This document shows, in pieces, positions 31,667 to 62,990 of a stretch of DNA of 64,000 bases. Position numbers and translations under genes: made by a program. Under the pieces are notes generated by a model. It did not search any database. It was given only the letters and a program-made list of their open reading frames with translations, and was not told where the DNA came from. The DNA is taken from positions 1 to 64,000 of the forward strand of contig NZ_JARUKW010000018.1 in assembly GCF_029688845.1 (NCBI RefSeq), given 5' to 3'. How positions within the stretch are numbered: position 1 is the first letter of the stretch; every line of letters starts with the position of its first letter. Source of the DNA: Natronococcus sp. A-GB1. GTDB taxonomy: Archaea > Halobacteriota > Halobacteria > Halobacteriales > Natrialbaceae.

Positions 31667-31692
31667 CCGGGCGCTGCAGGATTTGAACCACG
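31667..31692 (-). repeat. tRNA 3'-end remnant (candidate attachment site)
   Basis: The minus strand reads GGTTCAAATCC then TGCAGCGCCCGG, that is a T-loop (TTCAAAT), the 3' half of a T-stem and an acceptor end. The sequence to the right does not complete the T-stem or an anticodon arm, so only the 3' part is present. This is what remains on one side when an element enters a tRNA gene through its 3' end. The tyrosine integrase starts 220 bases away. The tRNA identity is unknown. Confidence 0.6.
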
Positions 31693-31793: not shown

Positions 31794-31910
31794 CTTGCGT
31801 CACCGGCTGTTACGGTTTTCCTTGGGCGCCATGGTTTCCTCGGCCACGAGATTTCAGCCGGGGATTGTTCCACCGGGCTATCGTGATCCTGAGTTCCGTG
31901 GGTGTACACG

Positions 31911-44355: not shown

Positions 44356-44793
44356 TTAGGTGCGGAAGTCGTCGATGGTATCGACGTCGTCTTCGAAGTC
44401 GGTGGTAAAGTCGCCTTCTTGGGGTGTAACGGGGTAGTCCTGTTGTGGATCATGGTTCGGTGGGTGCTGGCCTTGGGGCGGACCGGGGCCAGGGTCGTTG
44501 CGGGCAGCGAGTTGGCGCAGCAGGTGGGGTTGGCCGTTGCGTTCGGCGGCACCCCGGACGGTGTAGATGACTGCCGGGAGCAGGAGCGCGAGGATCATCA
44601 TCACGGTCAACGGGGACGAGATGAGCCCGGCGTCGTTGGCGGGTAACAAGACCAGGATGGCGTAGCCGACGCTTGCGAACAGGGACAGGGCGACAACGGG
44701 TTTCGGGAGGAGAGTGGCGATCACGGTCAGGGCAACGATGAGCAGGGCCCACGTCCCGAGAGACGGGATCAGCAGGGGGATCGGTGTAATCAT
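44356..44793 (-). CDS. Membrane protein linked to the ubiquitin-like operon
   Basis: 145 residues. Three or four hydrophobic segments fill residues 5-85 (LGTWALLIVALTVIATLL, VALSLFASVGYAILVLL, LTVMMILALLLPAVIYTV). A Pro/Gln/Asp-rich cytoplasmic tail of about 60 residues follows. The ATG overlaps the E1/JAB stop by four bases (ATGA), so translation is coupled to the conjugation enzymes. This suggests the system acts at, or on, the membrane. Family not recognised. Confidence 0.75.
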   Translation of the reverse strand: MITPIPLLIPSLGTWALLIVALTVIATLLPKPVVALSLFASVGYAILVLLPANDAGLISSPLTVMMILALLLPAVIYTVRGAAERNGQPHLLRQLAARNDPGPGPPQGQHPPNHDPQQDYPVTPQEGDFTTDFEDDVDTIDDFRT

Positions 44794-46229
44794 AGGTGAT
44801 CGAAGTAGGCGGTGACCGCGTCCGGAATCTGGTACACCGACTGGGTGTCAGTCTGTGCAGACCTGGGACGTGGAAGGTCGATCTCAGGATCGTCGGCCGG
44901 GGGAGTGGTGTCGCCGGTTGCGGTGAATCGGGTGCATGTATAGCAGTGGGTGTTGCGGTGGGTTGTGAGGCGGGCCAGGTCGTTGTGGAGGCCGTCGTAG
45001 TGGAGGAAACTGGGCGGGGTGTCGTAGCCGGTGACCAGTTTGGTGAGGGTTTCGGCCGCGAGGCTGGCGGCGATGCCGTTGAGATGGATGACGGCCGGTT
45101 CCGGGCTGAGGGCGGTTTCGGCGATATACCCTTGTTCGACCTCGTCTTCCAGTTCGTCCCGGGAGAGGTGTTCGCGGCGCATTGTTTCGGTGTCGCCGCG
45201 GTCGAGGCAGTCGAAGCAGGCGGTGTCCGTGCCTGGGGCGATGGTCTGGATGTAGGCGGCCATGTCGGTCACCTGGTCGTCTGTGATGTCGATGCGGCTG
45301 CCGGCATCGATGTACGGAGTCAGGTGCTCGGTGGCGTACCGGTTAAGCCACATCCGGGGTGTGATCCGGTCGAGACCGGCAAGGATCACGTCCACGTCTT
45401 GGAGGTACGAGGCGGCGTCTTGGACCGGGGTGGTCACGGCGGTCGTCGCGGCATCCGGGACGCGTTGGACGTACTGTTCCTGGAGGATGGAGACTTTGTA
45501 CGCGCCGGTGTCGCCCTGCCGGGCCTGCGGGATCCGGGGGAGGTTGCTGGACTCGATTTGGTCCGGGTCGATGAACGTTACCGTTTGGACGCCGAGGCCG
45601 GCGAGGTGTTGGGCGAGCAGGCTGCCGATCCCGCCGCAGCCGACGACAGCGACATGCGTGTCGGCCAGTGCCTGCTGCCCCGGTTCGAGGAAACACCGGA
45701 TGTTCCGGTCGTACACCGCTGGATCCACGGTATCGGTCTCTGTCTCGGTTGTCGGCTGTATCTCTGGAGGGTCGCTGAGGGTCCAGGCGCCGATGATCCG
45801 GGCGGGAACCGGGACGGGTGTCTCGGTCGCCGGATCCCATTGCGTGATATGGAACTGGGACGGGGTGAGGACGCCGAACAGGATGGTCAGGTCATCCACG
45901 AGGTCGGTGATCCAGGTGTAGGCGGCGATCGCGTCCTGGTCCTGATCGGTGAACCTGTCCGGGCCGGCAGGATGGCTATGAACGATAAGCGGGTGACGAT
46001 CGGTAGCCAGGCAGTGCTCGATGAACTGGCGATCGGTGGCCTCGGTAACCGCACACCGGGTCGGTGTCATGACGGCCATCTCGTCGGCAGGGACCGGATC
46101 AACGGATGACACGAGCAGGGAATCACCGCTGGCAGAACACGGGCAGAACGCGATGCGTTCCCGGTCGTCTTGGAGTAGCGTGTCCTGGAGCGTGGTGATG
46201 GCGTCAGCGGGGATACGAACAGTGGTCAT
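44790..46229 (-). CDS. JAB isopeptidase-E1 (ThiF) fusion protein
   Basis: 479 residues. The N-terminal domain (about 1-130) is a JAB/MPN metallopeptidase: Glu24, then HSHPAGPDRFTDQD with His84, His86 and Asp97; the usual Ser is Thr94. JAMM enzymes remove or mature ubiquitin-like tags. The C-terminal domain (about 175-435) is E1/ThiF: VVGCGGIGS at 195-203 for ATP, then DPDQIESSNLPRIPQ for adenylation, and zinc cysteines 338, 341, 429 and 432. It starts inside the E2 stop (ATGA). Activation and removal are thus joined in one chain, an arrangement described for some prokaryotic ubiquitin-related operons. Confidence 0.85.
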   Translation of the reverse strand: MTTVRIPADAITTLQDTLLQDDRERIAFCPCSASGDSLLVSSVDPVPADEMAVMTPTRCAVTEATDRQFIEHCLATDRHPLIVHSHPAGPDRFTDQDQDAIAAYTWITDLVDDLTILFGVLTPSQFHITQWDPATETPVPVPARIIGAWTLSDPPEIQPTTETETDTVDPAVYDRNIRCFLEPGQQALADTHVAVVGCGGIGSLLAQHLAGLGVQTVTFIDPDQIESSNLPRIPQARQGDTGAYKVSILQEQYVQRVPDAATTAVTTPVQDAASYLQDVDVILAGLDRITPRMWLNRYATEHLTPYIDAGSRIDITDDQVTDMAAYIQTIAPGTDTACFDCLDRGDTETMRREHLSRDELEDEVEQGYIAETALSPEPAVIHLNGIAASLAAETLTKLVTGYDTPPSFLHYDGLHNDLARLTTHRNTHCYTCTRFTATGDTTPPADDPEIDLPRPRSAQTDTQSVYQIPDAVTAYFDHL

Positions 46230-46696
46230 CGCTGTGGCGCCCGGTAGTCTTCGGGCCGGGAGACGGCCAGATGGCTGGTCGGGTCCGGGACATCAGGGTG
46301 GCTGAATGCGACCTGGAGCAATCCGAGGAGCCAGGGGATGTTGTGTTCGGCTGGATCCCAGTCGAGATCGCGGACGCACCACGGTAGCCAGGCCGGGTCC
46401 GGTGTTTTCGTTAACAGGTGGGTGACCCGGCCCTCGGTGTACTCAAGGCTGCGCGGGATGTAGGCGTACGGCTGGCTGTACGGGTAGCTATCAGGGATCC
46501 GGACGAGTAACGGGGCCACATAGGGTGGGCCACGAGGGACGCCGGGATGACGCTGCCAGCGCCGACGGTCCCGGAGAACCCATCCCTCGGGATAGTGGAA
46601 GTCCCGGAGTTCGTAGGCCTGGAGCTCGGTGTTCCGGGCAACGTAGTAGTTTTTGGCCAGTGCGGTGATTTCCGCGCGAAGTCGTGCTGTGTCCAT
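46226..46696 (-). CDS. E2-like ubiquitin-conjugating (UBC fold) protein
   Basis: 156 residues, E2 size. After an N-terminal helix, the segments APLLVRIPDSYPYSQPYAYI and LPWCVRDLDWDPAEHN, then IPWLLGLLQVAFSHPDVPDP, follow the E2 order: strand with YP-x-x-x-P, active-site Cys, a W-x-P turn, a helix, and a DP-containing tail. Cys107 is the only cysteine in the protein and lies where the catalytic Cys is expected. It would take the ubiquitin-like protein from the E1 and pass it to a target. The gene is 55 bases after the ubiquitin-like gene and overlaps the E1. Confidence 0.75.
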   Translation of the reverse strand: MDTARLRAEITALAKNYYVARNTELQAYELRDFHYPEGWVLRDRRRWQRHPGVPRGPPYVAPLLVRIPDSYPYSQPYAYIPRSLEYTEGRVTHLLTKTPDPAWLPWCVRDLDWDPAEHNIPWLLGLLQVAFSHPDVPDPTSHLAVSRPEDYRAPQR

Positions 46697-46719
46697 TACC
46701 TTGCGTTGGAAATATTACT

Positions 46720-46750
46720 GGTCCGAACGTTCGGACCCCCTGTTTAGGGG
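46720..46750. promoter_or_regulatory. 18-bp palindrome and hairpin between Ubl and E2 genes
   Basis: GGTCCGAACGTTCGGACC at 46720-46737 is a perfect 18-base palindrome. It is followed by a CCCC-TGTTTA-GGGG hairpin that touches the Ubl stop. In the message this would lie between the Ubl and the downstream enzymes. It could stop most transcripts or protect the Ubl message so that Ubl is made in excess, or bind a dimeric regulator. Confidence 0.55.
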
Positions 46751-47068
46751 TTAGCCGAACGGATTCTTTTTCGCGCCAGGCCGGAACGTCAGCCGGTCCC
46801 CGTCGTCCACGTGCTGGTACGGCCGGTCGTCATCATTCAACGCTTTCAGTTCATCGCCGGACCGGAGGTACGCCAGGTTATCCTCGCTCACATCTACCCG
46901 GTCCTTCAGGTCGCGAACCGTCATTTCCTGACTGAGCTGGACGCGGCGGCCTTTCACCTGCACCGTTTTCATATCAGGATCTGTTACCGGCCGTGTCTGC
47001 TTCGGTGGCTGCCCACGGTCCGTCTCCGGCATCGGTAGCCCGCCATCATCTGAGGGTTTCTCTCCCAT
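46751..47068 (-). CDS. Ubiquitin-like beta-grasp protein
   Basis: 105 residues from the ATG at 47068; the longer frame reads through the promoter. A Pro/Asp-rich N-terminal tail of about 32 residues leads into a beta-grasp domain: MKTVQVKGRRVQLSQEMTVR, then DLKDRVDVSEDNLAYLRSGD, then DGDRLTFRPGAKKNPFG. It ends with a bare Gly, the residue needed for E1 adenylation, so no trimming would be needed. A GGTTTATCG box at about 47095 suits a leaderless start. Alternatives are MoaD- or ThiS-like sulfur carriers, but the E2 next door argues for conjugation. Confidence 0.75.
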   Translation of the reverse strand: MGEKPSDDGGLPMPETDRGQPPKQTRPVTDPDMKTVQVKGRRVQLSQEMTVRDLKDRVDVSEDNLAYLRSGDELKALNDDDRPYQHVDDGDRLTFRPGAKKNPFG

Positions 47069-47274
47069 GCCAACATACACCACGCCGTAGTCGATAAACC
47101 TTTGGGTGAAGTTGTCGAAAAGGTTTTGATGTTCGCTAGAGTTATGCCGATTTGGCAGGGACGTGGCGAATCGGGAACAGCCTGACAGGCGTACCCGAAA
47201 CAGGATACCACAAGGAAAGCGGGTAGTACAACTGTTCAGTATACTTAACCGGTTGGGGTGGGAACCCGGCGGGT
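47069..47274. promoter_or_regulatory. Divergent promoter region between Ubl operon and regulator
   Basis: About 200 bases with two outward promoters: a GGTTTATC box on the minus strand near 47095 for the Ubl operon and AGTATACTTAAC on the plus strand near 47235 for the winged-helix gene. The arrangement suggests that the regulator controls the operon and itself. No other genes are seen here. Confidence 0.6.
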
Positions 47275-47736
47275 ATGGACGACGCCGATACTGGGGACCA
47301 AGTGGCACGGTGGGAGACGGTGGCCGCCCTGTTCACCGGGCTCTCGCATCGGGTTCGGATCGCGATTCTTGAGTCGCTGGCCGCGGATACGGACCGGCCG
47401 CTGACCGCGGTCGGGGACGAGTTCGACTACTCCCGGAGTGCCATCCAGAAACACGTCGAGACACTAATCGAGGCCGACCTGGTGTACCGGCCGCAGGAAA
47501 CGGACCAGCACTACGCGTTGACGCCGTTCGGCCAGTTCTTCGCCGCCTTCCTCGACGAACACAGCGAACCCTTGTACCAGGCGATGCAGCAGGCGGACGC
47601 GGCCGAGGCCGAAGCACAAGCCGAGTTCGAAGACGTGCCGTTGGATGAAGCGACACGGGAGAAAGCGGTAACAAACCGGAAGTGGGATCGGGTTTCTGAG
47701 AAAGGAGTTGAAGAATTAGACAGAGAGGACGGATGA
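47275..47736 (+). CDS. Winged-helix (ArsR-like) transcriptional regulator
   Basis: 153 residues. A helix-turn-helix core spans about 10-85, with VAALFTGLSHRVRIAILESL, then LTAVGDEFDYSRSAIQKHVE for the recognition helix, then LIEADLVYRPQETDQHYALT for the wing. The C-terminal helices (DEHSEPLYQAMQQADAAEAE) probably dimerise it. No metal-binding cysteines are present, so it is not a metal sensor of the ArsR type. Divergent from the ubiquitin-like operon, it is the obvious candidate to regulate it. Confidence 0.8.
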   Translation: MDDADTGDQVARWETVAALFTGLSHRVRIAILESLAADTDRPLTAVGDEFDYSRSAIQKHVETLIEADLVYRPQETDQHYALTPFGQFFAAFLDEHSEPLYQAMQQADAAEAEAQAEFEDVPLDEATREKAVTNRKWDRVSEKGVEELDREDG

Positions 47737-49865: not shown

Positions 49866-50867
49866 GTGATACCACTGACAGGACAACTGCACACGTTCGA
49901 TGGGATCACTGAATTCGAAGAGTTGAAACAGGAGCTGGCAGCGGTTGAGCGGCACGATATCTATGCGTACCATGACGATGCGGATGAGTGGGCCGAGTTA
50001 CCGTACCGGGATTCGTTGTGGACAAATAGTGGGCCGGTCGGGGATGTCTCGGCCAGTTCGAAGTATTATCACGTGTTTCAGCCGGCGGAGATCATCGAGT
50101 ATGAGGTCCATGCCCTGGAACAGTACCGGGATACGGTACGGCCGAAAGGGTATATCCGGGAGTCAGCGGACGGCCGGAAACTAACGGTGTACACGAATCT
50201 GGAGGGCCTGGAGGTGGAACCGGTGGAGGGTGATGTCTACGAATTAGGGAAGCGGACGTCCCACGCGCACACCGGGATGCATGGGTTGCATCATGATATC
50301 GGGGCGGTCCGGGTGGTCTGTTCGAACGGGATGATGTCGTTCGATGCGGAGAAGCAGTTCAGTCAGACCCACAGCGAGCCGTTGAACTATGCGTTGTTCG
50401 AGCATGCGTACGACAGTATCGTGAACGGGGTGGAGGACGTAGAAGACCGGATTCAGGCGGCAGCCGCCCAGGAACTGGTGAACCAGGATGAAGCCCTGCT
50501 GGTGCTGACCGATCTCAATATCGACACGTACCTCCCAGGGGATGAGCCGCTGGCAACACTGGAGGAGGCATTGGAGACAGAGCTTGACATGGAGCAGGAT
50601 CGGCCGACGCTGTACGACACGTACAATGCGGCGACACGGGCACTGACCCATGCACCGGGGATCGAGCCGGACAGCCGGGAGCAGGGCCTCAAACAGGCGG
50701 CCCGGTTGCTGGATCACCAGGGCGCGGTACCGGAGGCGACGGACCTGGGACAGAGCGCAGTCGAACGCCGGCTTGACGCGTACGTCGAGGACGAAACAGA
50801 GCCGTACTGGGACGATGAAGAGGAAACGTTGCAAACCCTGATCGAGACCCATGCGGGGGAACGGTGA
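49866..50867 (+). CDS. DUF932-like plasmid/phage protein
   Basis: About 333 residues from a GTG at 49866 (VIPLTGQLHTFDG); the start is uncertain. The pattern RVVCSNGMMSFDAEKQFSQT, followed by HSEPLNYALFEHAYDSIVNG and VEDVEDRIQAA, is typical of DUF932, a family carried by plasmids and phages whose role is not settled. The stop overlaps the GTG start of the next gene by four bases, so the two are coupled. It has no membrane segment or signal. Confidence 0.65.
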   Translation: MIPLTGQLHTFDGITEFEELKQELAAVERHDIYAYHDDADEWAELPYRDSLWTNSGPVGDVSASSKYYHVFQPAEIIEYEVHALEQYRDTVRPKGYIRESADGRKLTVYTNLEGLEVEPVEGDVYELGKRTSHAHTGMHGLHHDIGAVRVVCSNGMMSFDAEKQFSQTHSEPLNYALFEHAYDSIVNGVEDVEDRIQAAAAQELVNQDEALLVLTDLNIDTYLPGDEPLATLEEALETELDMEQDRPTLYDTYNAATRALTHAPGIEPDSREQGLKQAARLLDHQGAVPEATDLGQSAVERRLDAYVEDETEPYWDDEEETLQTLIETHAGER

Positions 50868-51529
50868 GACCGGTGAGTGCGGACCACGATGATACGGATG
50901 GCCGGGCGGTCGGCGGGGTGATGCGAGACGATATTCCGCAGATACTTGCGGATGTGCTCGTTGACCACGATCAGCATCTTGAGGTGTGGGTGCGGCCGGA
51001 ACGGGCAGGTGCCGGCTATACCATCGAGTGGACACCGGTCGAGTTCGATCGGGACACACAGGACTGGCAGCCAGCCAGTCGCAGCACCCGCCTCCAGGAG
51101 ACGGTCCGCGACCTCTTGGAACGGGTTATTGGCGGGGAGAACCGGGAGCCGGTGAAAGTGTTTGCGGTCAACGATGCGTACCTGTTCAAGCACTACTTCG
51201 AGGAAAAATCGGTGTTCGAGGCGTTGCGATCGTACTACAACGGGGATCAATCCCGGTTCGAGGTCCCAGACCACGCATTCGAGGACGTCCAAACGATATT
51301 GGAGGAGGCCGGGTTTGAACCGGTGCTCATCCGGGATGTCCGGCCGTTCTGCGTTGTCTACCCAAAGTACCGGGAGCATCCAACTGTCCTGTTCAAACGG
51401 TCGGTGCTCCAGCAGAGCCGTGATCGGGTCCACATCTTCTTGATGCAGGACCAGGCCGCGGTCGAGCAGGCCGTCAACCAGGGTGCAACACCGGTGACTG
51501 ACACCGACCTCGATGATAACGGCCTCTAA
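50864..51529 (+). CDS. Hypothetical protein coupled to the DUF932-like gene
   Basis: 221 residues with a GTG start overlapping the previous stop. Recognisable stretches are IPQILADVLVDHDQHLEVWV, an acidic linker, EEKSVFEALRSYYNGDQSRF and PTVLFKRSVLQQSRDRVHIF. It is soluble and has one or two cysteines. No family is recognised. A short frame overlapping its end (from 51513) is not convincing. Confidence 0.65.
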   Translation: MRPVSADHDDTDGRAVGGVMRDDIPQILADVLVDHDQHLEVWVRPERAGAGYTIEWTPVEFDRDTQDWQPASRSTRLQETVRDLLERVIGGENREPVKVFAVNDAYLFKHYFEEKSVFEALRSYYNGDQSRFEVPDHAFEDVQTILEEAGFEPVLIRDVRPFCVVYPKYREHPTVLFKRSVLQQSRDRVHIFLMQDQAAVEQAVNQGATPVTDTDLDDNGL

Positions 51530-51930: not shown

Positions 51931-52156
51931 ACTTAAAAGGTCTTTATCAAGTACTGTACAGGTTGTAAGTGTTCCACCTCCACTTTTCGTGGAACCTACT
52001 TACCAGGTGCCCTCCATTCGGGGGCATCACTACCTATACCCGAATGGGTACCCAGGATCGGCGACCGCTCCGGGCCCGATCCCAAAAATAACTCCCGGAG
52101 CAACCAGAACACAACTGGTTGAACCACAATCAAATCAAATTAGGTGAATCAACACA
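51931..52156 (+). promoter_or_regulatory. Promoter and long hairpin-rich leader of the S-layer-type gene
   Basis: ACTTAAAAGG at 51931-51940 is a TATA box, with a start near 51962. Three hairpins follow in order: GTAAG/CTTAC with GTTCCAC/GTGGAAC (51965-52003), CATTCGGG/CCCGAATG (52015-52046) and GGATCGG/CCGATCC (52055-52082). AGGTGA at about 52142 is a ribosome-binding site for the ATG at 52157. A leader of about 195 bases is exceptional for haloarchaea and parallels the leader at 39027. Confidence 0.65.
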
Positions 52157-54559
52157 ATGAAAGTCAAGAACTCAATCAAGAAGGTCGGAGCCGTTGCAGC
52201 ATCCGGACTGATGGTCGGACTATCAGTCGGTGCCGCAGCATCACTCTCCGACTTCCCAGAACCATTTGTGGAGGACGGCGAAGTCGCCTCCCAGATCGTT
52301 GTGGGATCAACAGGACAAGTAGCCGACGTCGTTGGTGCGGTTAACATCGCAGCAGCACTCGGCCACGCAGCAGTACAAACAGAAGAAACCGAAATCGAAG
52401 GCGGCATCGCTCACGATGTCGACGGAGAAATCGAAGAAACCGCCATCCGTGGCGAAGTTGATTTTGATGTCGGAGACGCGTACTCACAGTTCGAAACGTA
52501 CTACGAGTACGATGAAGACGACAACCTCCGAGTCACAGAAGAAGCAATCGTCAGCATGGGATCAGAAGGTGGTGCAGTCGTTGCAACTGACGTCGAAGAA
52601 GAACTCGACGCAGAAGTACGACTGACAGGAGAAGGAGACTTGGGTGAAAACGATTACCCTATCCAGTACACAGCTGACTATGGTGCAGGTGTCGAAGAAG
52701 GTGAGGCAATCTACCTGCTCGGCGAAACGTACGAAGTGACCGCTCTCGACAGTGATGACCTCGAACTGGGTGCACAGCTTGAGCACCGCAATCTCGCAGC
52801 TGGCGACGAAATCGAGCACGGTGTCTGGACCGTCGAGATCATCGACGTTGACCGGGGAGACAGTCCAGCGGTACGAGTTGATGTCTACGAAGACGGATCT
52901 TTCGTGACCAGTGCCACACTCGATGAGAGTGACAATCCTCGTGAAGAGTTCGGAGACGACAATGAGTTCGTCATCGAAGTCGACGACATCTGGTTCGGTG
53001 ACGCACTGGATCAGGTCCACCTGGACACGACACTCACCGAAATCGAACAGGAAAACGGTGAAGCGTTCTGGATGGACGAGGACTACAACTTCTACTTCGA
53101 AACCACCGCAGACGACGAAGCGGTTGTCAGCGTTGACCTTATGGCCAACGTAGAGTTCGTGATCGTCGAAGATGACGACGATGAGGAACTGGACGAAAAC
53201 GAAGTACATGCACTCGCTCCGGGAGAATCCTTCGCAGGACCGAACGACTACTTCACAGTCGAGAACCTCGGACTCGATGACGCGGACGCTGAAGACATCT
53301 CCATCCAAGAAGACATGGAGCTGGACTTCTACGACGCCAACAACGTCCACCACAACTTCGCACTCGAAGACATCTCAACACTCAGTGACTTGACAACCAA
53401 TGAAGATGACGGGTACGTAATCGTCGCAACCGACGACGATGAAGGCGTTCCACTCTACATGGACGTCAACACCTGGGATGATTCTGGTGGCGACGGAGTC
53501 GATATCGACTTCGAGTACGGTGACCGAGAACAAACCATCGAAGAAGACTCTGGAAGCGGCACCTACACGTTCCGTGGTGACGGATTCAGCGTCGAAGTGT
53601 CTCTCGATGACGGTAATGCAGATAGCATCAGCATTGTCAGTGACGCTGAAGATGGTTCTGGGCCAGTTCTTCCAGGTCATCTTGAAGGCACATCTATCGC
53701 TGATGGTGAAGCCAACTATCTCACCACCTACCGACAAGGTGTCCTGACACTCCACGACCTCGCTGCAGACGACCTGGAGGAAGGCGATGAGACGCTTGGT
53801 GACTACGGTGTCACTGTCGCCGCATCGGATCTGGATGCTGTTAATCCAGAAGACGGTGGTGTCATTGCACTGTCTGAGTCCGACGAAGACACAGAAGAAC
53901 GAGGATACGTTCTGACAGTCTTCGAAGATGACAACCACGTTGGCGCTGAAGATGTCGATGCAGGTGAGATCTATGAGGTCTTCCTCCACGACGACAGCGA
54001 TGATGAACAAGGTGACAACACCAATTGGGACTTCGACGCTGATCAGGATGAGTCGATGACCAATCACGGGACACACGTCACCTTCGACGACTCTGATGAA
54101 GTGGCACTGAGCCACCCTGAAGAGCAGCTCGAACTGTCAGTCGCACTCGGTTCAACGGACACCACCGAAACCAGTGGAGAAACCGTTGAGACTGTTGCCG
54201 AGCAGAGTGATCTGCCTGACATGGCAATGCTTGACGAGGAAGAGACTGAGTCTGTCCGGGACAACAACCACTTGATCTTGGTTGGTGGTCCGGCGGTCAA
54301 CACGTTGACCCAAGAGCTGTACGATGACGGTGACATCGACCTCAGTGATGTTGAGGACGATCAGTCTGGTGCGGTCATTGAGATCGTTGAAGACGCGTTC
54401 AGTACTGGACAGCACGCGATGGTTGTTGCTGGTTACGCAGCTGACGACACACGCGGTGCATCCCAGTACATCGCACAGCACAGGACGAACGCTGACACGT
54501 TGGCTGACAACGATCAGCGACTGGTCCTGACCGAAGCACAGTTCGACACAGAACAGTAG
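52157..54559 (+). CDS. S-layer protein with S_layer_N/S_layer_C-type ends
   Basis: 800 residues, very acidic. Signal peptide MKVKNSIKKVGAVAASGLMV and on to SVGAAASLSDFPEPF. The first segment, FPEPFVEDGEVASQIVVGST then ADVVGAVNIAAALG, matches S_layer_N (PF05123-type). The last 100 residues, LILVGGPAVNTLTQELY, then AMVVAGYAADDTRGASQYI, match S_layer_C (PF05124-type). These ends are typical of methanogen and DPANN S-layer proteins; haloarchaeal cell-surface glycoproteins usually end in a PGF-CTERM anchor. The middle holds beta-sandwich-like repeats. It could replace or overlay the host S-layer, or coat vesicles or virions. Confidence 0.8.
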   Translation: MKVKNSIKKVGAVAASGLMVGLSVGAAASLSDFPEPFVEDGEVASQIVVGSTGQVADVVGAVNIAAALGHAAVQTEETEIEGGIAHDVDGEIEETAIRGEVDFDVGDAYSQFETYYEYDEDDNLRVTEEAIVSMGSEGGAVVATDVEEELDAEVRLTGEGDLGENDYPIQYTADYGAGVEEGEAIYLLGETYEVTALDSDDLELGAQLEHRNLAAGDEIEHGVWTVEIIDVDRGDSPAVRVDVYEDGSFVTSATLDESDNPREEFGDDNEFVIEVDDIWFGDALDQVHLDTTLTEIEQENGEAFWMDEDYNFYFETTADDEAVVSVDLMANVEFVIVEDDDDEELDENEVHALAPGESFAGPNDYFTVENLGLDDADAEDISIQEDMELDFYDANNVHHNFALEDISTLSDLTTNEDDGYVIVATDDDEGVPLYMDVNTWDDSGGDGVDIDFEYGDREQTIEEDSGSGTYTFRGDGFSVEVSLDDGNADSISIVSDAEDGSGPVLPGHLEGTSIADGEANYLTTYRQGVLTLHDLAADDLEEGDETLGDYGVTVAASDLDAVNPEDGGVIALSESDEDTEERGYVLTVFEDDNHVGAEDVDAGEIYEVFLHDDSDDEQGDNTNWDFDADQDESMTNHGTHVTFDDSDEVALSHPEEQLELSVALGSTDTTETSGETVETVAEQSDLPDMAMLDEEETESVRDNNHLILVGGPAVNTLTQELYDDGDIDLSDVEDDQSGAVIEIVEDAFSTGQHAMVVAGYAADDTRGASQYIAQHRTNADTLADNDQRLVLTEAQFDTEQ

Positions 54560-54581: not shown

Positions 54582-54622
54582 GAGGGGCTGGGCCTTGCCG
54601 GCCCGCCTCTCATTTCTTCCCT
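54582..54622 (+). terminator. Hairpin terminator after the S-layer-type gene
   Basis: GGGCC-TTGCC-GGCCC, extended by GAGG/CCTC arms, followed by a T/C-rich run. It lies 22 bases after the stop, so this gene is its own transcription unit. Confidence 0.65.
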
Positions 54623-54638
54623 TACAGACTGATGCCCG

Positions 54639-55427
54639 ATGACACAGCAGTACTCCCGTGACGACCTCCTCGAATACCTCCAACGATTAACGGAGGAGCT
54701 GGGACACTCACCGCGGATCGTGGATATCCGAGACAGAACAGATGCACCGCCAGTATCCCGGTTCAAGAACGAGTTCGGATCGTGGAACGCGGCTAAAGAC
54801 GCGGCCGGCCTCACCACGTTCCAACAACGCGGCCAAGGATCGTATTCTGATACAGAACTACTGGACCTGCTGCGGCAACTGGACACCGAACTCCGCGGCG
54901 ATGGCTCGGTGACCAAACAGGAGATGCAGGACGCCGACGGCTATCCCTCTGCCCAGACCTACAAACGCCGGTTCGGCTCCTGGAACGCCGCCAAAGAACA
55001 GGCTGGATTGACCACGATCGCCGAAGACGACACCCGGCCCAGGTACACGGATGGAGAACTACTAGCCATGCTCCAAGACTTGGCCGCAGACCTGGACCGG
55101 CCACTGCTCAAACGGGACGTAGAAGAAACCGAGGACTACCCGGACCCGACAACGTTCGAACGCCGATTCGGGTCATGGAACGCCGCCAAAGAACAGGCCG
55201 GGTTGACCACGATCGGGAAAGGCGAGACACCACGCCCGGACTCATACACGGATGCGGAGCTGCTGGACTTGTTACGGCAACGCGCCGCCGAGGTCACAGG
55301 AACACTGACGGAGAACGCGATGGATGCTGCCCCGGACTATCCGAACTCGTCAACGTACCGGCGGCGCTTCGGATCCTGGCAGGCAGCGAAGGAGAAGGCC
55401 GGGGTCCAGAAATCATCTGGGAAGTAA
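54639..55427 (+). CDS. Homing-endonuclease-associated repeat protein (four repeats)
   Basis: 262 residues, made of four copies of about 55-60 residues. Each starts YSxxELLxxLxxL-like and ends FGSWNAAKEQAGL (FGSWNAAKDAAGL, FGSWQAAKEKAGV). This is the DNA-binding repeat found beside HNH and LAGLIDADG homing endonucleases (HNH_repeat type). No nuclease domain is present, so it is probably a DNA-binding or regulatory protein. Repeats 2-4 are very alike, which points to recent internal duplication. It may regulate the S-layer gene before it or the NTPase after it. Confidence 0.8.
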   Translation: MTQQYSRDDLLEYLQRLTEELGHSPRIVDIRDRTDAPPVSRFKNEFGSWNAAKDAAGLTTFQQRGQGSYSDTELLDLLRQLDTELRGDGSVTKQEMQDADGYPSAQTYKRRFGSWNAAKEQAGLTTIAEDDTRPRYTDGELLAMLQDLAADLDRPLLKRDVEETEDYPDPTTFERRFGSWNAAKEQAGLTTIGKGETPRPDSYTDAELLDLLRQRAAEVTGTLTENAMDAAPDYPNSSTYRRRFGSWQAAKEKAGVQKSSGK

Positions 55428-55483: not shown

Positions 55484-58400
55484 ATGGATCCTGCGTCACT
55501 CGGTACGAGTCTTCTTGCGTCTGCTACAGCTCGGCGTGTCGGTCAGAAAGCTCATGAGATGGTCTTCCTGGAGGATCCAGTGGAGACAGCAGCAAGTCGG
55601 GTTGCCGAAAACCATGATGCATTAGAGCCAGAGGTCTTTCCGGCGATTTTTCAGGATGAGCAGGTTGCAGGGTTAGTTGAAGAGTTTGAATCAGGGGGGT
55701 CGGTGATTACACCGAGACAGGTAGCTGACGCGTTTGATGCCGATATGTTGGGATCTGAAGTCGAAGCAACGCCAGAGGAACTGGTTGAGGAGTTTCTGGA
55801 GTATCTTGAACAGGAGATCGGGCAGCAGCCGGAGGTTGGGCGGAAACTGTTACTGTGTTATTCGCAGCGGATCTTCCAGTATGCCACCGAACTTCAGGAG
55901 GGTCAAGAGGAGATACTGTTCGACCTGCGGAAAGTAGCTGGCCGTGTCCATACCGAGAAGGGATATACGATCTTCAGTCCGATAGAGGACCGGTTCGCCA
56001 AACAGCTGGCCGGAGACCATCCCAAGGAGCGATACGATCTACCGTTTTACGGGAGGGAAGACGCCGTCGAGGATTTCTTTGAGTTCGTCGACTCAGATCA
56101 GGCCGTTTTCGTTATCAGTGGGCCTGCCGGCGTTGGAAAAACCCGGCTCGTGGTCGAAGCAGGGCTCCATATCCAAGCCAGTTATCCGAAGTGGCGGGTT
56201 CTGACGACAGATATCCATGCGGGAAACATCGACGACGGCCTCCATGAAATCGACTTCAACGATGAGGAAAAGATCATCTTGTTTATCGATGATGCACGGG
56301 ATGTCGACCAAGTAGAGCGGCTGTTTGCTATCGCAGATCAGTACCGGCCAGATGTCAAACTGGTCTTTACGGAACGATCCTACTTCGTGCAGCCCTTACG
56401 AGAACGTGCGAACCGGTTTGCACTTGGTCATACGGTCTATGACCTTCCTCCACTCGATTCAGACAGCGTCAGGAACGTTCTCCGGGAATACTACCAGATC
56501 ATAGACCCGCCGACCCAGGACTGGATTATCCAGGTAAGTGAGGGGCGGCCCCAGATCGCCCATCTGTTGGCCGATCAGGTTCGCCAGCAGGGATCGGTCG
56601 AAAAAGATCCCCTGGCTGACAGTGAAGTGCTCCAGTGGGTGTTCGATGATACGGTCCGGGACGTGACCGCAGCAGCAAAGCAGCGCAGTGTCGGCGATCC
56701 ACAGAAAGCCGAAGAATATCTCCGGTACTTGGCTGCAGTAGGCAAGTTACAGACCGAAGATACGGCAATGGTGGATGCGTTTTGCGGGGCCATCGGAATC
56801 GACCCGGTTGAGGAGCCACGGTACCGCGCCATTTTGACCGAAACAACCGGATTAGTTGATACATCAGGTAGTCAGCTAACGGTAGAACCCGATGCGTTAC
56901 AGGAATACATCGTCTATACCTCGTTCTTCACCGAAACGGGCCGCGACTACCAGGCACAAGTATTCGACGTGTTCAGCGAACACACCCTGAAAGAACAGAT
57001 CAATACGTTACTCGTTATCGAGCATCGATACGACTGCCGGGACGCCGGCGCTGTCGTCAACGCCGTGGTGACCGACCACATGGATCAGATGACCGAGTAC
57101 GGGTTGGCGGCGCGGACAGAACTTCTTCGCCAGTTCGAGATCCTGGGTGCAGCAAAACCGGTGTGGGGAATAGACCTGGTCCGGGCTGCACTCACCGAGG
57201 AACTCCCTGAAACAGACGACAGCGAGGAACTACAGCGTCGTCTCCTCAAAGCACCGAGTACAGCCGGGAACCTGTGTCTGGCAGCTATCTCTATTCTGCA
57301 TAATGCCCTATCCCAGGAACCAGCGGCAGCAACAGAGCTGTTACTGGAACTGCACGTGCTCTACAGGGAACACAGCGGGATCACCGATGACATCACCCAA
57401 AAGCTGCGGCAAGAACTCGAGCCGGGATGGAGTCGAGACCCGACTACGCAGCGCCAGATGCTGTCCGTTATCAGCACCTATATTCACAACGAAGAGATTC
57501 CGCTCGAGATACGGCTGGAGTTGCTGGATCTCGTCGCAGCCCCGTCCCGGAGCCACGTCAATGATCACTTTGTGGACCCGCTCAACCCAGATGTGGTCCA
57601 ACTCCGGCGAGGTCCTGTTCCAGTTACCGATGACCGCCAAGCCCTCCGCATGGATGCGGTTAACCTGCTGATCGAGGTTATAGAGAGCACCGATTCAGCA
57701 CCCTTGCTACAAAAGGCAACAGAGACACTTACCGGGTTTTACCAGTCACAAGCCCAGCACTTCTATGAAACCGGAACAGTATACAATGCAGAGGAACTGA
57801 CCCGTATCTATGATTTCGCGGTCCAGTACGTTGCGGGGGCAGATAATCTGAATTGTGTTGACCAGTTCAGTAATCTGGTGGAGACAGACCTGGCTGCTGA
57901 CCTGGGAATCGAAGACCATGTTACGGGGCTTGAATCGCAGCTGACTCAGCACGATGGCTACCAGACCCTGCTCCAGATGAAACCTCAGAAGCGGCCACGA
58001 GACGAGCGGGGGCGAATGGAGGAACAGGAAGCCGCGATCAGAGAGTATCTTCAGGGGATTGATGTTACAGTCAACCGAGAGCTATTTACCACCGTTGTGG
58101 AAAACTACTCTGGCACATCGTTCCACCGCTTCTTTAGACTGCTCGGCGCGGAGTGTCCTACTGCGGGGCGAAAGCTGGTGAGCGGCGAAGAGTCGGGGTT
58201 ACAGGACTACCATCCCGATATTGTGAGCGGGTTCTGTACGGCCCGTCCTGATGCGGGAGAAACACTTGTTCAGGAGTTCATTGATAACGGCCGGTATGAC
58301 TTGGGCTGTGCCGGGCTACGGGTGCTTATCAACACGCGGCGGGGATTCGCAGTCAACCAAGTAGAGCAGCTGCTTCAGGAACATCAACCGTACTCAGTGG

Positions 58401-59257
58401 ACTTCACGGTGAACATGGCCAATGTTCTGTACGGACAGTGGCAGGACCACCAGACATGGACGGAATCACAGCTTCTTACCCTTCTTGAGGAGACACAGTC
58501 ATTGGATACTCAGGCTATAACCGCCCTTTTAGAAGTGCTTCCCTGTCGTGATACAACGGCGCTCCAGCACGTGGATGAAGCGATCATCATGGCAGTTATG
58601 GCCTATGCGGAGGAGCAGGACGGATTCAGTACCGCGCCAGGTACCCTTTCTAAGGTTATTGCCGAGGCAGCTGCCCGGTATCCAAAGCAGTTCGTCGAAT
58701 TCTGTCGTGCGCGTTATGACCAAGGAGATATGGGCGGCTCCCTGTTACCGACGTATCTTGATGTTGATACGGCACGTATGCAACGCAGCGATGAATACGC
58801 AGCTGCCGTCGATCAACTGGTAACCCTCATCCTGAATCCGGACTACCATGCCGATCTGTATTCTGATCTCTTAACCGTGTTTCCGACGGACGATGTTACC
58901 ACCGGGCTTATCGAGAGAATTCCTTACTGTGATGCGGCTCAACTTGCTGAAATCGGCGACTACTGCAAACAATTCACTTTGTCCAATGCGATTGAGGAGT
59001 TACTCTTAGCAGTTCTGACAGAGGGCGTCGAGGATCTCCAAGATGCCGATGACGTCCGTGCCAGTGTGCTCATCGCATTAAGTAATGATGGAGAGATGGG
59101 CATGATCTCCGGCGACCGGAACTCGACGGAACTCGAGACGGTTCGCCGCTGGCAGGACGATTCCAGTCTCCCGGTCAGTGTCCGCCGGTTCGCCGAGGAA
59201 GCCGAGCAGTACCTATTAGACGATATCAAGCGGATGAACCAAGCTTTCGACCGCTAG
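55484..59257 (+). CDS. STAND-type P-loop NTPase, large (1257 residues)
   Basis: An N-terminal domain of about 190 residues without recognised fold precedes the NTPase. Walker A is GPAGVGKTRLV at 213-223; Walker B is KIILFIDDARDVDQVERLF. VKLVFTERSYFVQPLRERAN and YDLPPLDSDSVRNVLREYYQ are the following STAND/NACHT landmarks. The C-terminal 700 residues are all-helical and may form a superhelical sensor (LETVRRWQDDSSLPVSVRRF near the end). In bacteria, such proteins often act as pathogen sensors with an effector domain. A GAATATATG box 30 bases upstream gives a leaderless message. Function is inferred. Confidence 0.75.
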   Translation: MDPASLGTSLLASATARRVGQKAHEMVFLEDPVETAASRVAENHDALEPEVFPAIFQDEQVAGLVEEFESGGSVITPRQVADAFDADMLGSEVEATPEELVEEFLEYLEQEIGQQPEVGRKLLLCYSQRIFQYATELQEGQEEILFDLRKVAGRVHTEKGYTIFSPIEDRFAKQLAGDHPKERYDLPFYGREDAVEDFFEFVDSDQAVFVISGPAGVGKTRLVVEAGLHIQASYPKWRVLTTDIHAGNIDDGLHEIDFNDEEKIILFIDDARDVDQVERLFAIADQYRPDVKLVFTERSYFVQPLRERANRFALGHTVYDLPPLDSDSVRNVLREYYQIIDPPTQDWIIQVSEGRPQIAHLLADQVRQQGSVEKDPLADSEVLQWVFDDTVRDVTAAAKQRSVGDPQKAEEYLRYLAAVGKLQTEDTAMVDAFCGAIGIDPVEEPRYRAILTETTGLVDTSGSQLTVEPDALQEYIVYTSFFTETGRDYQAQVFDVFSEHTLKEQINTLLVIEHRYDCRDAGAVVNAVVTDHMDQMTEYGLAARTELLRQFEILGAAKPVWGIDLVRAALTEELPETDDSEELQRRLLKAPSTAGNLCLAAISILHNALSQEPAAATELLLELHVLYREHSGITDDITQKLRQELEPGWSRDPTTQRQMLSVISTYIHNEEIPLEIRLELLDLVAAPSRSHVNDHFVDPLNPDVVQLRRGPVPVTDDRQALRMDAVNLLIEVIESTDSAPLLQKATETLTGFYQSQAQHFYETGTVYNAEELTRIYDFAVQYVAGADNLNCVDQFSNLVETDLAADLGIEDHVTGLESQLTQHDGYQTLLQMKPQKRPRDERGRMEEQEAAIREYLQGIDVTVNRELFTTVVENYSGTSFHRFFRLLGAECPTAGRKLVSGEESGLQDYHPDIVSGFCTARPDAGETLVQEFIDNGRYDLGCAGLRVLINTRRGFAVNQVEQLLQEHQPYSVDFTVNMANVLYGQWQDHQTWTESQLLTLLEETQSLDTQAITALLEVLPCRDTTALQHVDEAIIMAVMAYAEEQDGFSTAPGTLSKVIAEAAARYPKQFVEFCRARYDQGDMGGSLLPTYLDVDTARMQRSDEYAAAVDQLVTLILNPDYHADLYSDLLTVFPTDDVTTGLIERIPYCDAAQLAEIGDYCKQFTLSNAIEELLLAVLTEGVEDLQDADDVRASVLIALSNDGEMGMISGDRNSTELETVRRWQDDSSLPVSVRRFAEEAEQYLLDDIKRMNQAFDR

Positions 59258-59970: not shown

Positions 59971-62166
59971 GTGCGGTTCTATGTTCCGGAATGGGATGAC
60001 TTTGTTGACGCGAACTATGATTTCATCCATGATGAGCACTCATCATTGGATCCCCGTGAGCGGGATATCGCGTATATCTGGGATATTTTCGATCATGAGT
60101 CAACACCGATTGATGGGGTGTTGATTTCCCGGGAGCAGGTTGAGGATACCCCTGCGAAGTTTAACCGGATCACGGAGAACGGGGTCTACGATGCACCCAT
60201 GCTGGATCTCCCAGAGTGGTTGCCAACGATCAGTGACTGCGGTGCGTGGGGGTACAAGGCATTGCCGTTCCCGCCGTACGGCAACAAAGGGATGCTGGAG
60301 TTCTACGAGACACTCAATGTATCCGTCGGTGTTACGATTGACCATCTCGTACTCGGCAGCGGCCACACCGCGCGGTTGTACCTGGATGAACGGGCGTTCC
60401 CGGACGGGTTTACCGCCTCAGATATTCCGGACGCGGTCACAGACGAGATCGATGTGATGACCGATGAATGGCCGACAGAGTGGCCAGCGTACGTCCAGGA
60501 ATATGAGCCATCGATCTGTAGCACCGGGGTTACCGAGTTCGATACGACCGTGTTTGATCAGCCGCTTCCAGCAGTGCTGACCGACCTTGAGGACCATCCG
60601 CACGCGGTCTACCGGGAGGACGATATGTCGTTCCGGTACGATCTGACGTTAGCAAACGCCGAGGAGATGAAAGAGCTCTACGAGGCAGGGAAGTATTCGT
60701 TCCGTCTGATGGTTGCGGTCCAGGGATGGGATCCACAGTCGTATGAACAGGCGACCGAGGAGGTCCTCGATATGGGCTATCAGTACCTCGGGATTGGAGG
60801 GGTTGCTGGCAGCTCCGAGGAAGCAGTCAAAGACTGCGTAGAATCCGTTGGACAGGCGGTGAAAGCGTATGAACGCGAGCACAACACCCGGGTCGATACA
60901 CACGTGTTCGGGTTTGCAAAGACCGGTGCCTTCGATGCGATCGGGCAAGCCGGGATGTCCAGTTTTGACAGTGCCAGTATGCTTCGGGCAGCATGGACCG
61001 GCGGCGAAAACTACCATTTAGACGACACCCAACGATACGATGCAATTCGCATCCGTTATCCTTCAAGCGGAGACGACCTTGGTGATGCCGTAGAGACCGC
61101 ACTTCGCGGACAGGAGATGCTGTATGCGTTGCGGGCGTTCGATAACAACAAATCGATCGTGGACGCACTAACGGAGTGGCACGAAGCGGCGATCCCAGCA
61201 CTGGATCAGCTTGAACCGTACCTGAAAGAGCACCGGCACGATGACCGGTACGATCAGTCGTTGCTCCGCGAGATCAAAGAAGAACTGCGGACCGATTATG
61301 CGTACGGCCGGAAGCTCCGGTCCAACTTCAGCGGCAAGTTCCGTGGCCGGCTCGCGAAACTACTGCGGAAAGACGATCCGGACAGTCCACTCCCGTTCAG
61401 CCAGTACCAAGAGCTGATCGACCAGGTCAGAACGGTCTTCACCGATCGGACACCGACAAAGATTGAGAAGATCAAGGACAAGGAAACGACATCCGGCGAA
61501 TACGGGACCTACAAGCAACTGGTACCCCTCTTAGAGGATTACGTTGAGCATGTTAAGGATGAGGACTTACTGGACGGATACAGGGATTTGTTGCGTCGAC
61601 AACCATGGCGCGAGTGTGGGTGCCCGATTTGTGAAGAGCACGGCATCGAAGTCGCGACCTTCCGTGGAAACAACCGGAATCGACGCCGTGGCTTCCATAA
61701 CACGCACCGGTTCTACGAGCAGTTCGAACGGGCGTTACCGAAGATTGCGGTCCTGACACGGGGCGGGGTCCGTCTCTCCCGGAAGGATTCGGTCGAAACG
61801 TTCCTCCAGGACGATCGAAACCGGTTGTGGTCGCAGGTCCACGATCTTCCTGTCGTGGAAATCGGTGCGGTCACCGCGAACGGAGTACACGAGTGGTGGG
61901 AGACACCGCCAGCCTCGATTTCGTTTGCACCACATGCGATGCAGGCAGTCCTCACAGACTACTGCACCCGGTACCAGACGGTGTACATCGACGGCAGCAA
62001 CTGGACCCCGGATCAGGAACTGATCGATGCTGTTGAAGCGACCGGCTGTGCGGTCCACCTACTCACTGACCCGACCGAGTTACGCACCGCGGTACTTGAC
62101 CAACTGGGCTACGACACAGAGTTCGCTTCGGAACCAATGACCCAGTCCGGGATTACGGACTACTAA
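59971..62166 (+). CDS. DpdA-like transglycosylase (TGT superfamily), 731 residues
   Basis: GTG start at 59971. A TGT-type barrel is indicated by TISDCGAWGYKALPFPPY (Asp89, the position of the first catalytic acid) and FGFAKTGAFDAIGQAGMSSF then DSASMLRAAW. Zinc ligands are Cys549, Cys551 and Cys554 (CGCPIC) and His576 in RRRGFHN, preceded by TFRGNNRNRRR. This CxCxxC...H zinc site is a TGT hallmark, and the FRGNNRNRRRGFHN box is one I associate with DpdA, which inserts 7-deazaguanine bases into DNA. A 150-residue helical insertion is extra. A tRNA enzyme is the alternative, less likely in this context. Confidence 0.75.
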   Translation: MRFYVPEWDDFVDANYDFIHDEHSSLDPRERDIAYIWDIFDHESTPIDGVLISREQVEDTPAKFNRITENGVYDAPMLDLPEWLPTISDCGAWGYKALPFPPYGNKGMLEFYETLNVSVGVTIDHLVLGSGHTARLYLDERAFPDGFTASDIPDAVTDEIDVMTDEWPTEWPAYVQEYEPSICSTGVTEFDTTVFDQPLPAVLTDLEDHPHAVYREDDMSFRYDLTLANAEEMKELYEAGKYSFRLMVAVQGWDPQSYEQATEEVLDMGYQYLGIGGVAGSSEEAVKDCVESVGQAVKAYEREHNTRVDTHVFGFAKTGAFDAIGQAGMSSFDSASMLRAAWTGGENYHLDDTQRYDAIRIRYPSSGDDLGDAVETALRGQEMLYALRAFDNNKSIVDALTEWHEAAIPALDQLEPYLKEHRHDDRYDQSLLREIKEELRTDYAYGRKLRSNFSGKFRGRLAKLLRKDDPDSPLPFSQYQELIDQVRTVFTDRTPTKIEKIKDKETTSGEYGTYKQLVPLLEDYVEHVKDEDLLDGYRDLLRRQPWRECGCPICEEHGIEVATFRGNNRNRRRGFHNTHRFYEQFERALPKIAVLTRGGVRLSRKDSVETFLQDDRNRLWSQVHDLPVVEIGAVTANGVHEWWETPPASISFAPHAMQAVLTDYCTRYQTVYIDGSNWTPDQELIDAVEATGCAVHLLTDPTELRTAVLDQLGYDTEFASEPMTQSGITDY

Positions 62167-62168
62167 CC

Positions 62169-62867
62169 ATGCAGATACTTATCGTCGATCAGTGCTCGAA
62201 AGCGAAAAAAGGCGACGACCGGTACGAACCAGTCGATCCGGAAACGATTGCTACAACCCCACGGACCGATCTCATCAGCCAAGATGATATCCCTGCGGTA
62301 CCGGCCACAGATCTGTATGAAGGCCGGCAACAACAACGGATCACCGAGGCGGTCAACCGGTTCGAGGAAGCCGGTGATGCGGTGGATCGAATCTTTATCA
62401 GTGCCGGGTTCGGCGTAATCGATTCAACAGATCGGCTGCCACCGTACAATATCACGTTCGCGGATATGACGAGCACCGAAGTCGATGACCGGGCCACCCA
62501 ACTCGGGATCTATGAGGATCTCCGCCGCTGCCTCGACACCGGGACATACGATCTGGTGTTTTTCGCCCTGGGCAGTGATTACTACCGGAGTGCCCGGATC
62601 GAAGACCTGATCGAAGCCACGACGGATGCCCCCAGTATCGTAGTGTTCAACCGCGAAGAACTGGCCGCAGAGTATGACCATGTAGTATCCATCTCGGCCC
62701 GAACCGACGACGCAAAAGACCATGGAACGATCGTGATCGCGCTGAAAGGACAGTACCTGAAAAACTTCGCTGCCCACCGCGAAACCGGGAAAACACCCAC
62801 CGAGACCGGCGATGTGAAACGGTACTGTACGGAAGATCCCTACCAGTCCGGTCTCAGCGACTACTAA
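62169..62867 (+). CDS. DUF6884/YaaA-like protein
   Basis: 232 residues, starting 2 bases after the DpdA-like stop. It opens MQILIVDQCSKAKKGDDRYE, then ATDLYEGRQQQRITEAVNRF, then FISAGFGVIDSTDRLPPYNI, the CSKxK...Ay.ly.s...SA.yGll pattern of DUF6884 and YaaA-like proteins. Such domains occur with archaeal and phage TGT relatives and have been proposed to act on nucleic acids. It closes with YCTEDPYQSGLSDY, echoing the SGITDY end of the DpdA-like protein. Coupled expression supports a joint function. Confidence 0.75.
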   Translation: MQILIVDQCSKAKKGDDRYEPVDPETIATTPRTDLISQDDIPAVPATDLYEGRQQQRITEAVNRFEEAGDAVDRIFISAGFGVIDSTDRLPPYNITFADMTSTEVDDRATQLGIYEDLRRCLDTGTYDLVFFALGSDYYRSARIEDLIEATTDAPSIVVFNREELAAEYDHVVSISARTDDAKDHGTIVIALKGQYLKNFAAHRETGKTPTETGDVKRYCTEDPYQSGLSDY

Positions 62868-62990
62868 CACCGATAACTGACAGTCGGCTCCACTGAGTAA
62901 CACGGTGTTGGATCCATCACCTTAGACGACTTACTTGTCTCCTAACTAGGCATTTTATTACCTGGCCCAGCTTAGCCGAGCGCATCCGGC

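Follow-up and report, generated by a model that had tools for sequence, protein, structure and literature searches.

How does a gene for a surface-layer (S-layer) protein of the type known from Methanococcus and the DPANN archaea come to lie in a haloarchaeal genome, and what would such a protein do there? We approached this question at the first 64,000 nucleotides (nt) of contig NZ_JARUKW010000018.1 of Natronococcus sp. A-GB1—the whole of which stretch is called the window below—where the gene occupies positions 52157–54559 within an integrative element. We propose, with a probability that we set at about 0.6, that this haloarchaeal element carries a nanohaloarchaeal-type S-layer gene, which gene was gained from or exchanged with nanohaloarchaea, and that the element would thereby convert the surface of its host. 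The protein family itself is already known; what is new is that related haloarchaeal elements carry an S-layer gene of nanohaloarchaeal type, which probably crossed more than once. No earlier report of such a gene on a haloarchaeal element was found in the open-licence full text of PMC, bioRxiv not being covered by that search.

An S-layer protein of the Methanococcus/DPANN type

The gene and the two parts of its product that are discussed here are the following.

52157–54559, + strand: S-layer protein gene of the MJ/DPANN type; ATG start, 800 amino acids, PF05124 and TIGR01564
52253–52366, + strand: N-terminal half of the predicted anchor domain; residues 33–70, predicted local distance difference test score (pLDDT) mostly 82–90; aligns with Protein Data Bank (PDB) entry 9FSA jointly with the C-terminal half
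54224–54526, + strand: C-terminal half of the predicted anchor domain; residues 690–790, pLDDT 82–96

The open reading frame has exactly these bounds, with 800 uninterrupted codons, and positions 30000–56000 are free of N, a single contig holding the gene, its leader and the point at which the chromosomal part ends. PF05124 (S_layer_C) matched the protein with 87.9 bits (cut-off 23.9; E 7.9e-25) over residues 30–772, which long span arises because the family is split into a short N-terminal and a C-terminal piece of one domain, and NCBIfam TIGR01564 (S_layer_MJ) matched with 51.2 bits (cut-off 25; 7.6e-14), the best stretch being residues 8–74. By these matches the protein is a member of the Methanococcus/DPANN (MJ-type) S-layer family. 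A Pfam scan at E up to 1 gave no match to a separate S_layer_N model, and the NCBIfam scan, likewise at E up to 1, returned TIGR01564 alone and no match to TIGR04216, the model for the Csg type.

The protein begins with a lysine-rich segment followed by a hydrophobic stretch (windows above 1.6 from residue 10, as judged by hydropathy only), is strongly acidic (27% D+E, 2.4% K+R), and has neither a C-terminal membrane helix nor a PGF motif, no hydrophobic window being present at its C-terminus. The host's own surface glycoprotein, for its part, has 827 residues and ends in a PGF-CTERM-type segment with a helix; that protein is also below the TIGR04216 cut-off. The glycoprotein contains nine N-X-S/T sequons versus none in the S-layer protein. 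The S-layer gene is present as a single copy, and silent cassettes for antigenic variation were rejected, the window's own genome being without a second copy.

A search of PDB sequences with the protein gave 9FSA as the sole match, at both ends; this entry is the crystallised "cell wall anchoring domain" of the Methanococcus voltae S-layer. The AlphaFold model, built from a 36-row alignment, was poor overall (mean pLDDT 63.4, with much of the middle low), residues 33–70 and 690–790 being confident. The model aligned with 9FSA over 126 of 135 residues (Z 15.7, root-mean-square deviation (rmsd) 2.4, 38% identity, model range 33–777), and in it the N- and C-terminal ends pair into one composite anchor domain. 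The middle of the protein is beta-rich in the model and matched the DUF1608-like beta domains of 3u2g at Z 10.1 but with an rmsd of 9.7, in a region of low pLDDT; structural look-alikes at middling Z, such as viral envelope proteins and clathrin, were set aside as common beta arrangements.

The initial annotation had set a protein of the methanogen/DPANN type against the PGF-CTERM glycoproteins of haloarchaea, and both sides of that distinction were recovered: the first in the PF05124 and TIGR01564 matches together with the missing PGF segment, the second in the end of the host's own glycoprotein. Of the layout that it described, with S_layer_N at the start and S_layer_C at the end, it holds that both ends belong to the S-layer family, but the two are halves of one composite domain, as in 9FSA, and not separate domains.

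Nesting among nanohaloarchaeal S-layer proteins

Haloarchaeal copies numbered only three in all searches: that of the window, that of a genome from a different genus of the same family (G397, on locus L008) and that of Halobellus captivus ZY8 (Haloferacaceae), the last encoding a protein of 984 amino acids. In the order of the window PF05124 matched 3 of 392 genomes at E 0.001 (2 over the cut-off), and in its family 3 of 125 (2 over the cut-off); a match in G245, a 114-amino-acid frame below the cut-off, was excluded from the count. A protein search among 100 relatives recovered one, the window's genome itself. Six of the 294 genomes of a phylum-wide search matched, five of them over the cut-off, and the matches other than the window's were for the most part proteins resembling membrane proteases in which a short segment is similar (by eye), plus one (L011), from a bin assigned to another family, whose S-layer end is DPANN-like. 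With tblastn no relative of the protein was found in phages or plasmids (no plasmid match at 0.01, pR1SE2 included), and viral contigs likewise gave none.

In the nanohaloarchaeal class to which the genome of locus L019 belongs, 26 of 28 genomes carry the family (6 of 6 in a smaller sample), commonly in several copies, and several of these genomes have it near 0.9 Mb of a single contig; PF05124 also counts proteins of about 310 amino acids there, so that copies per genome overstate the S-layer genes. A scan of genome contigs gave 248 candidates, of which 191 were confirmed and the best 80 kept; it used a single peptide pattern that is unfit for copies with LVLVGG, for example that of the nanohaloarchaeal bin G674. 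Among those best 80 of 191 relatives H. captivus ranked first and four nanohaloarchaeal bins next, followed mostly by Aenigmatarchaeota and other DPANN.

In a tree of 83 rows the window, G397, H. captivus and four nanohaloarchaeal rows formed a clade (support 100/99), and the same seven-row clade was obtained at 100/98 from 63 rows, which were the 83 minus 20 that were long, gappy or doubtful. The copy of G674, whose C-terminal segment is 72% identical to that of the window, is the nearest non-haloarchaeal one. A 56-row tree contained a subset of the 83 rows, G674 and 17 of 29 new C-terminal segments (12 having been dropped as duplicates or short paralogues), L008 and several bins contributing one half of the domain only; in this tree the window grouped with G397 and G674 (100/99) and H. 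captivus with the nanohaloarchaeal loci L020 and L021 (94/81), and the whole group fell inside the nanohaloarchaea (97/90). The window is nested among nanohaloarchaeal S-layer proteins in all three trees (nested groups 97–100/85–99), which agrees with the nanohaloarchaeal link suspected at the outset; neither a place in a haloarchaeal chromosomal S-layer clade nor an absence of the Pfam domains was found.

With G674 included, monophyly of the three haloarchaeal rows was rejected (p-value of the approximately unbiased test, p-AU, 0.00063); the haloarchaeal copies are then not one clade, and therefore the gene probably crossed between the phyla at least twice. Between the proteins of G397 and G674 the identity is 69%, against 45% between those of G397 and the window, though G397 and the window have the upstream gene in common. 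At the DNA level positions 52036–52449 of the window are 82.6% identical to G674, and the G397 copy is 73.7% identical to it over 1778 columns. Because of the nesting and the prevalence of the family, the direction from nanohaloarchaea to haloarchaea is favoured, not proven.

If the direction were the reverse, the subtype would belong to haloarchaeal elements and the nanohaloarchaeon G674 would have taken the gene with its leader from one of them, which possibility would account for its position beside two haloarchaeal element copies (100/99) and is matched by a similar tetranucleotide make-up of the window's element (33–52 kb) and the G674 contigs (r 0.82–0.88). We regard it as doubtful: the wider nanohaloarchaeal S-layer set encloses the entire group, H. 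captivus with it (97/90), and nanohaloarchaea usually have several such genes, against the three haloarchaeal copies. Transfer between phyla would disappear altogether if the nanohaloarchaeal copies were contigs of haloarchaeal elements placed in wrong bins. Every named nanohaloarchaeal relative is indeed a metagenome bin, the S-layer contig of G674 (C70) measures 11.4 kb, and composition alone cannot rule out a mobile element, the make-up of C70 being also close to that of haloarchaeal elements (r 0.69–0.86). The ligase encoded on C70 has relatives in haloarchaea (up to 38% identity), and 19 other nanohaloarchaea yielded none at 1e-20, a point that would suit the reverse direction; against misbinning stands that 38% is the highest value. 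Misbinning is nevertheless unlikely, and we give it little credence: the family occurs almost throughout the class as described above, with copies well inside a long contig; the contigs of L020 and L021 have 40–43% guanine plus cytosine (GC) and, by eye, genes of housekeeping type, a dTMP-kinase-like one among them; C70 is closer in make-up to the other G674 contigs (r 0.84–0.92) than to haloarchaeal chromosomal stretches (r 0.60–0.64); contig C34 of G674 is clearly nanohaloarchaeal, its gene order being common with several nanohaloarchaeal loci; and among the five matches listed for the flippase-type gene of C70, haloarchaeal plasmid proteins reach no more than 31% identity.

Some observations made in these searches stand apart. 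Loci L009, L010 and L012–L015, from other genomes of the phylum, encode membrane proteins with an S_layer_C-like segment before an M50-type protease-like domain (by eye). L033, L059, L060 and L083 are DPANN-type S-layer genes whose bins bear the labels Syntrophomonadaceae, Chloroflexi, Thermotogae and Methanohalobium, and their contigs are probably misbinned; L083 and L011 stand side by side in the tree with zero-length end branches.

The carrier element and its relatives

The features of the element to which the argument refers are these.

31902–64000: integrated element carrying the S-layer gene; runs on to the contig end at 82102; GC below that of the 66% flank
31902–32921, + strand: tyrosine integrase at the chromosomal edge; PF00589 2.2e-08; 39% identical protein in L008
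49839–50867, + strand: DUF932 gene; PF06067 4.9e-08; 43% identical protein in the H. captivus element
50864–51529, + strand: gene without assigned function (the 50864 gene), directly upstream of the leader; relatives in L008, H. captivus and plasmids
54639–55427, + strand: HNH_repeat (PF18780) gene, directly downstream; four repeats, 1.4e-62

At the integrase gene the GC content drops from about 66% to mostly 53–63% and remains low until the contig end, so that an integrase at the edge and a change in composition are both present, as expected of an integrative element. Its contents include integrases, Cdc6-like ATPases and HerA/TrwB-like ATPases; the last, and a TraG-type ATPase in the H. captivus element, are candidates for a coupling protein, and the element looks integrative/conjugative. 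Near the integrase, positions 31671–31690 resemble by eye the 3' end of a minus-strand transfer RNA (tRNA), a possible remnant of an attachment site; ARAGORN found no tRNA.

Locus L008 is a 12.8 kb contig on which the S-layer gene stops short of the C-terminal anchor half and is immediately followed by a gene for a tyrosine recombinase; the contig also carries relatives of the Cdc6-like, primase and integrase genes of the window's element. In H. captivus a low-GC region makes up the first ~54 kb of a 402 kb scaffold and contains relatives of the ThiF-type gene and its neighbours and of the DUF932, 50864, S-layer and HNH_repeat genes, so that the two elements have at least six gene families in common around the S-layer gene; which gene thus sits in related haloarchaeal elements of three genera. 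A protein 58% identical to that of the 50864 gene is encoded directly upstream of the S-layer gene in G397, a 35% relative is found in the H. captivus element, and partial relatives are present on 14 haloarchaeal plasmids, where they are short and, in the five annotated regions viewed, in differing neighbourhoods. The HNH_repeat protein has a 43% identical counterpart at the same place in H. captivus and plasmid relatives in haloarchaea too; the DUF932 gene had none in the plasmid collection. The idea that the element itself is nanohaloarchaeal was not upheld: for the 50864, HNH_repeat, DUF932, Cdc6-like, primase and integrase genes, relatives exist on haloarchaeal plasmids or at the other two haloarchaeal loci; the S-layer gene is the foreign part.

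We also considered the HNH_repeat gene as a general partner of surface genes and set that idea aside. A clear surface protein was encoded directly downstream in 2 of 12 plasmid neighbourhoods (two records of apparently one H. marismortui plasmid being among the 12), namely on pR1SE2 (a BGTF surface protein) and pNG100 (a pilin-type N-terminus), a count that is suggestive only; elsewhere a tail-fibre-type gene was upstream on pAArc-CO and a solute-binding protein downstream in H. caseinilyticus. The order on pR1SE2 (L100, 19611–24219), with a gene matching HNH_repeat and then the BGTF protein, echoes the S-layer/HNH_repeat pairing.

Leader and 5' block

The signals around the gene were located by pattern and consensus scans and by folding.

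51933–51940, + strand: TATA-like promoter element TTAAAAGG; pattern scan; 224 nt before the ATG
51958–52156, + strand: predicted structured mRNA leader; start placed ~25 nt after the TATA-like element
52157–52396, + strand: first 80 codons, with a signal-peptide-like segment and the N-terminal anchor half; nearly frozen at the DNA level
54589–54605, + strand: terminator-like stem; consensus scan only; 1 found versus 0.1 expected

TATA-like motifs were found 178–279 nt before the ATG in all six upstream regions compared (window, L008, G674, H. captivus, L020 and L021), and a long leader, which is likely for the window's gene, therefore looks like a common trait. The leader folds at a minimum free energy of −68.5 kcal/mol (z −4.43), which none of 200 shuffles reached, and its ATG-proximal part is conserved in L008 and in the nanohaloarchaeal copy of G674. 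In the alignment of these three sequences 5 of the 40 predicted pairs differed in both bases, with a covariation term of only −0.21; a conserved RNA fold is suggested. Together with the terminator-like stem, these signals agree with the transcription unit of its own, with long leader and terminator, that had been read for the gene, and we infer such a unit on the basis of sequence.

Among the first 80 codons, those for the same residue were identical in 64 of 72 cases between window and L008, 59 of 70 between window and G674 and 54 of 70 between L008 and G674; in the middle of the gene the corresponding counts were 96/159, 118/201 and 148/229. H. captivus stands outside this frozen 5' block (21 of 52 same-residue codons identical). 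The block would follow either from a constraint at the DNA or RNA level or from recombination that joined different gene bodies to a shared 5' cassette, between which two possibilities three sequences do not decide.

Proposed role

According to our reading, transcription from the promoter at 51933 would yield a stable, structured and highly translated mRNA; the protein would be secreted, and its ends would pair into the anchor domain—dimeric in the S-layers of methanogens and Thermococcales according to the available text of the 9FSA paper (PMC11410804)—with the beta-rich middle forming lattice arms. The protein might then be laid on the haloarchaeal surface beside the host glycoprotein layer or as patches within it, so that viruses, other elements and nanohaloarchaeal symbionts would meet an altered surface, to the advantage of the element. 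Haloarchaeal S-layers are described as virus receptors or triggers (PMC9973310, PMC8875312), and nanohaloarchaea as attaching to haloarchaea and seeming to disturb the host surface (PMC11291902), in the parts of those reports available to us; a foreign S-layer protein could accordingly keep out viruses, rival elements or symbionts, or change how cells make contact. As a more tentative extension, elements may move S-layer genes to and fro between haloarchaea and nanohaloarchaeal parasites, the frozen 5' block acting as a cassette for expression and anchoring onto which lattice bodies are swapped, while the nanohaloarchaeal coat would hide the host from viruses, rival elements and parasites, or mark it to them as taken.

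Several points weigh against surface conversion by a gene of nanohaloarchaeal origin. The function of the protein, and every step from transcription on, is what we infer; the protein is without an N-glycosylation sequon, unlike the host's surface glycoprotein; and the gene is not retained intact in every carrier, its G397 copy being truncated. As regards the transfer, without G674 a single haloarchaeal clade was not rejected (p-AU 0.205, 63 rows), and G674 is a fragmented bin whose C70 ligase is of the haloarchaeal affinity given above.

Two other roles have to be set beside this one. A silent passenger, captured by chance and useless to element or host, would fit the G397 truncation, the three haloarchaeal copies and the missing glycosylation sites, the host having a surface glycoprotein of its own; but 800 codons and the anchor are intact, a promoter-like element, a structured leader and a terminator-like stem are present, and a related gene neighbourhood has been maintained in two haloarchaeal families, and we hold a decaying gene to be rather improbable. 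The protein might instead cover a virus-like particle or a plasmid vesicle made by the element, as the initial annotation had also envisaged, and ORF9 of the vesicle plasmids of the pR1SE family has weak S-layer-like fold matches in the available text of PMC10818511. PHROGs, though, gave nothing for the S-layer protein, and among 10 element proteins scanned there was no structural, capsid or portal match, one weak terminase-like ATPase match being obtained; no capsid-type gene being among the proteins tested, a coat is therefore less likely, and the lack of relatives in phages, viral contigs or plasmids (pR1SE2 being in the collection) and the integrative/conjugative appearance of the element leave this role with a very slight probability. 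A change of the host surface, the other use that had been envisaged, is the best fit among these readings, though it stays conditional.

Compared with Methanococcus-type S-layer proteins (TIGR01564, PF05124, 9FSA), the window's protein is alike in the ends that form one anchor and in the beta-rich middle of the model, but differs in its location on a haloarchaeal mobile element and in its strong acidity; outside the anchor no close methanogen sequence relative was seen. Nanohaloarchaeal S-layer proteins are the closest in tree and DNA besides those of other haloarchaeal elements, with a similar TATA-like distance and the same anchor; their genes lie in nanohaloarchaeal genomes, often several in each, whereas the window has one copy beside element genes. 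With the PGF-CTERM glycoproteins (Csg type, TIGR04216) it has in common that it is an acidic, presumably secreted surface protein, and it differs by lacking the PGF-CTERM segment, the C-terminal helix, an N-X-S/T site and the TIGR04216 match. Other surface proteins borne by elements are an S-layer protein on a thaumarchaeal integrated element (PMC6563490), the pR1SE-like ORF9 (PMC10818511) and the BGTF protein of pR1SE2, which are not described as S-layer genes of another phylum's type in the available text of those sources.

An S-layer is usually seen as a lineage's own skin, being at once virus receptor, barrier to cell fusion and contact face for symbionts. If our proposal is true, that skin itself moves between a lineage of parasites and the group on which they live, and coats can pass between very distant archaea. 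Whether a cell can wear a foreign archaeal S-layer, and who can then attach to it, is testable in the cultured H. captivus ZY8; through the gene, contacts of nanohaloarchaea with particular haloarchaea could also be traced genetically.

Other features of the contig

Directly after the HNH_repeat gene, positions 55484–59257 encode a STAND-type NTPase of 1257 amino acids without a PADLOC match. A ThiF/E1-type gene and its neighbours (44790–47736) are related to E1–E2 defence models and are kept in the H. captivus element (ThiF gene 45.9%). From 59971 to 64000, and on into positions 1–2087 of the adjoining locus L007, the element carries a dpd-type cluster for 7-deazaguanine DNA modification or defence, with DpdA-like genes at 59971 (PADLOC DpdA 4.3e-74) and 62991 (TGT family, 1.6e-28), a weakly DpdC-like gene at 62169 and a BrxC/D-type ATPase. 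Further on, a minus-strand gene at L007 5828–8419 (contig C10, 69828–72419) matches Orf5, HEC-06 and SspE defence models and adjoins a HerA/mad8-type ATPase gene. In the chromosomal part, positions 13967–14283 and 14333–14649 form a direct repeat of 317 bases at 90.5% identity.

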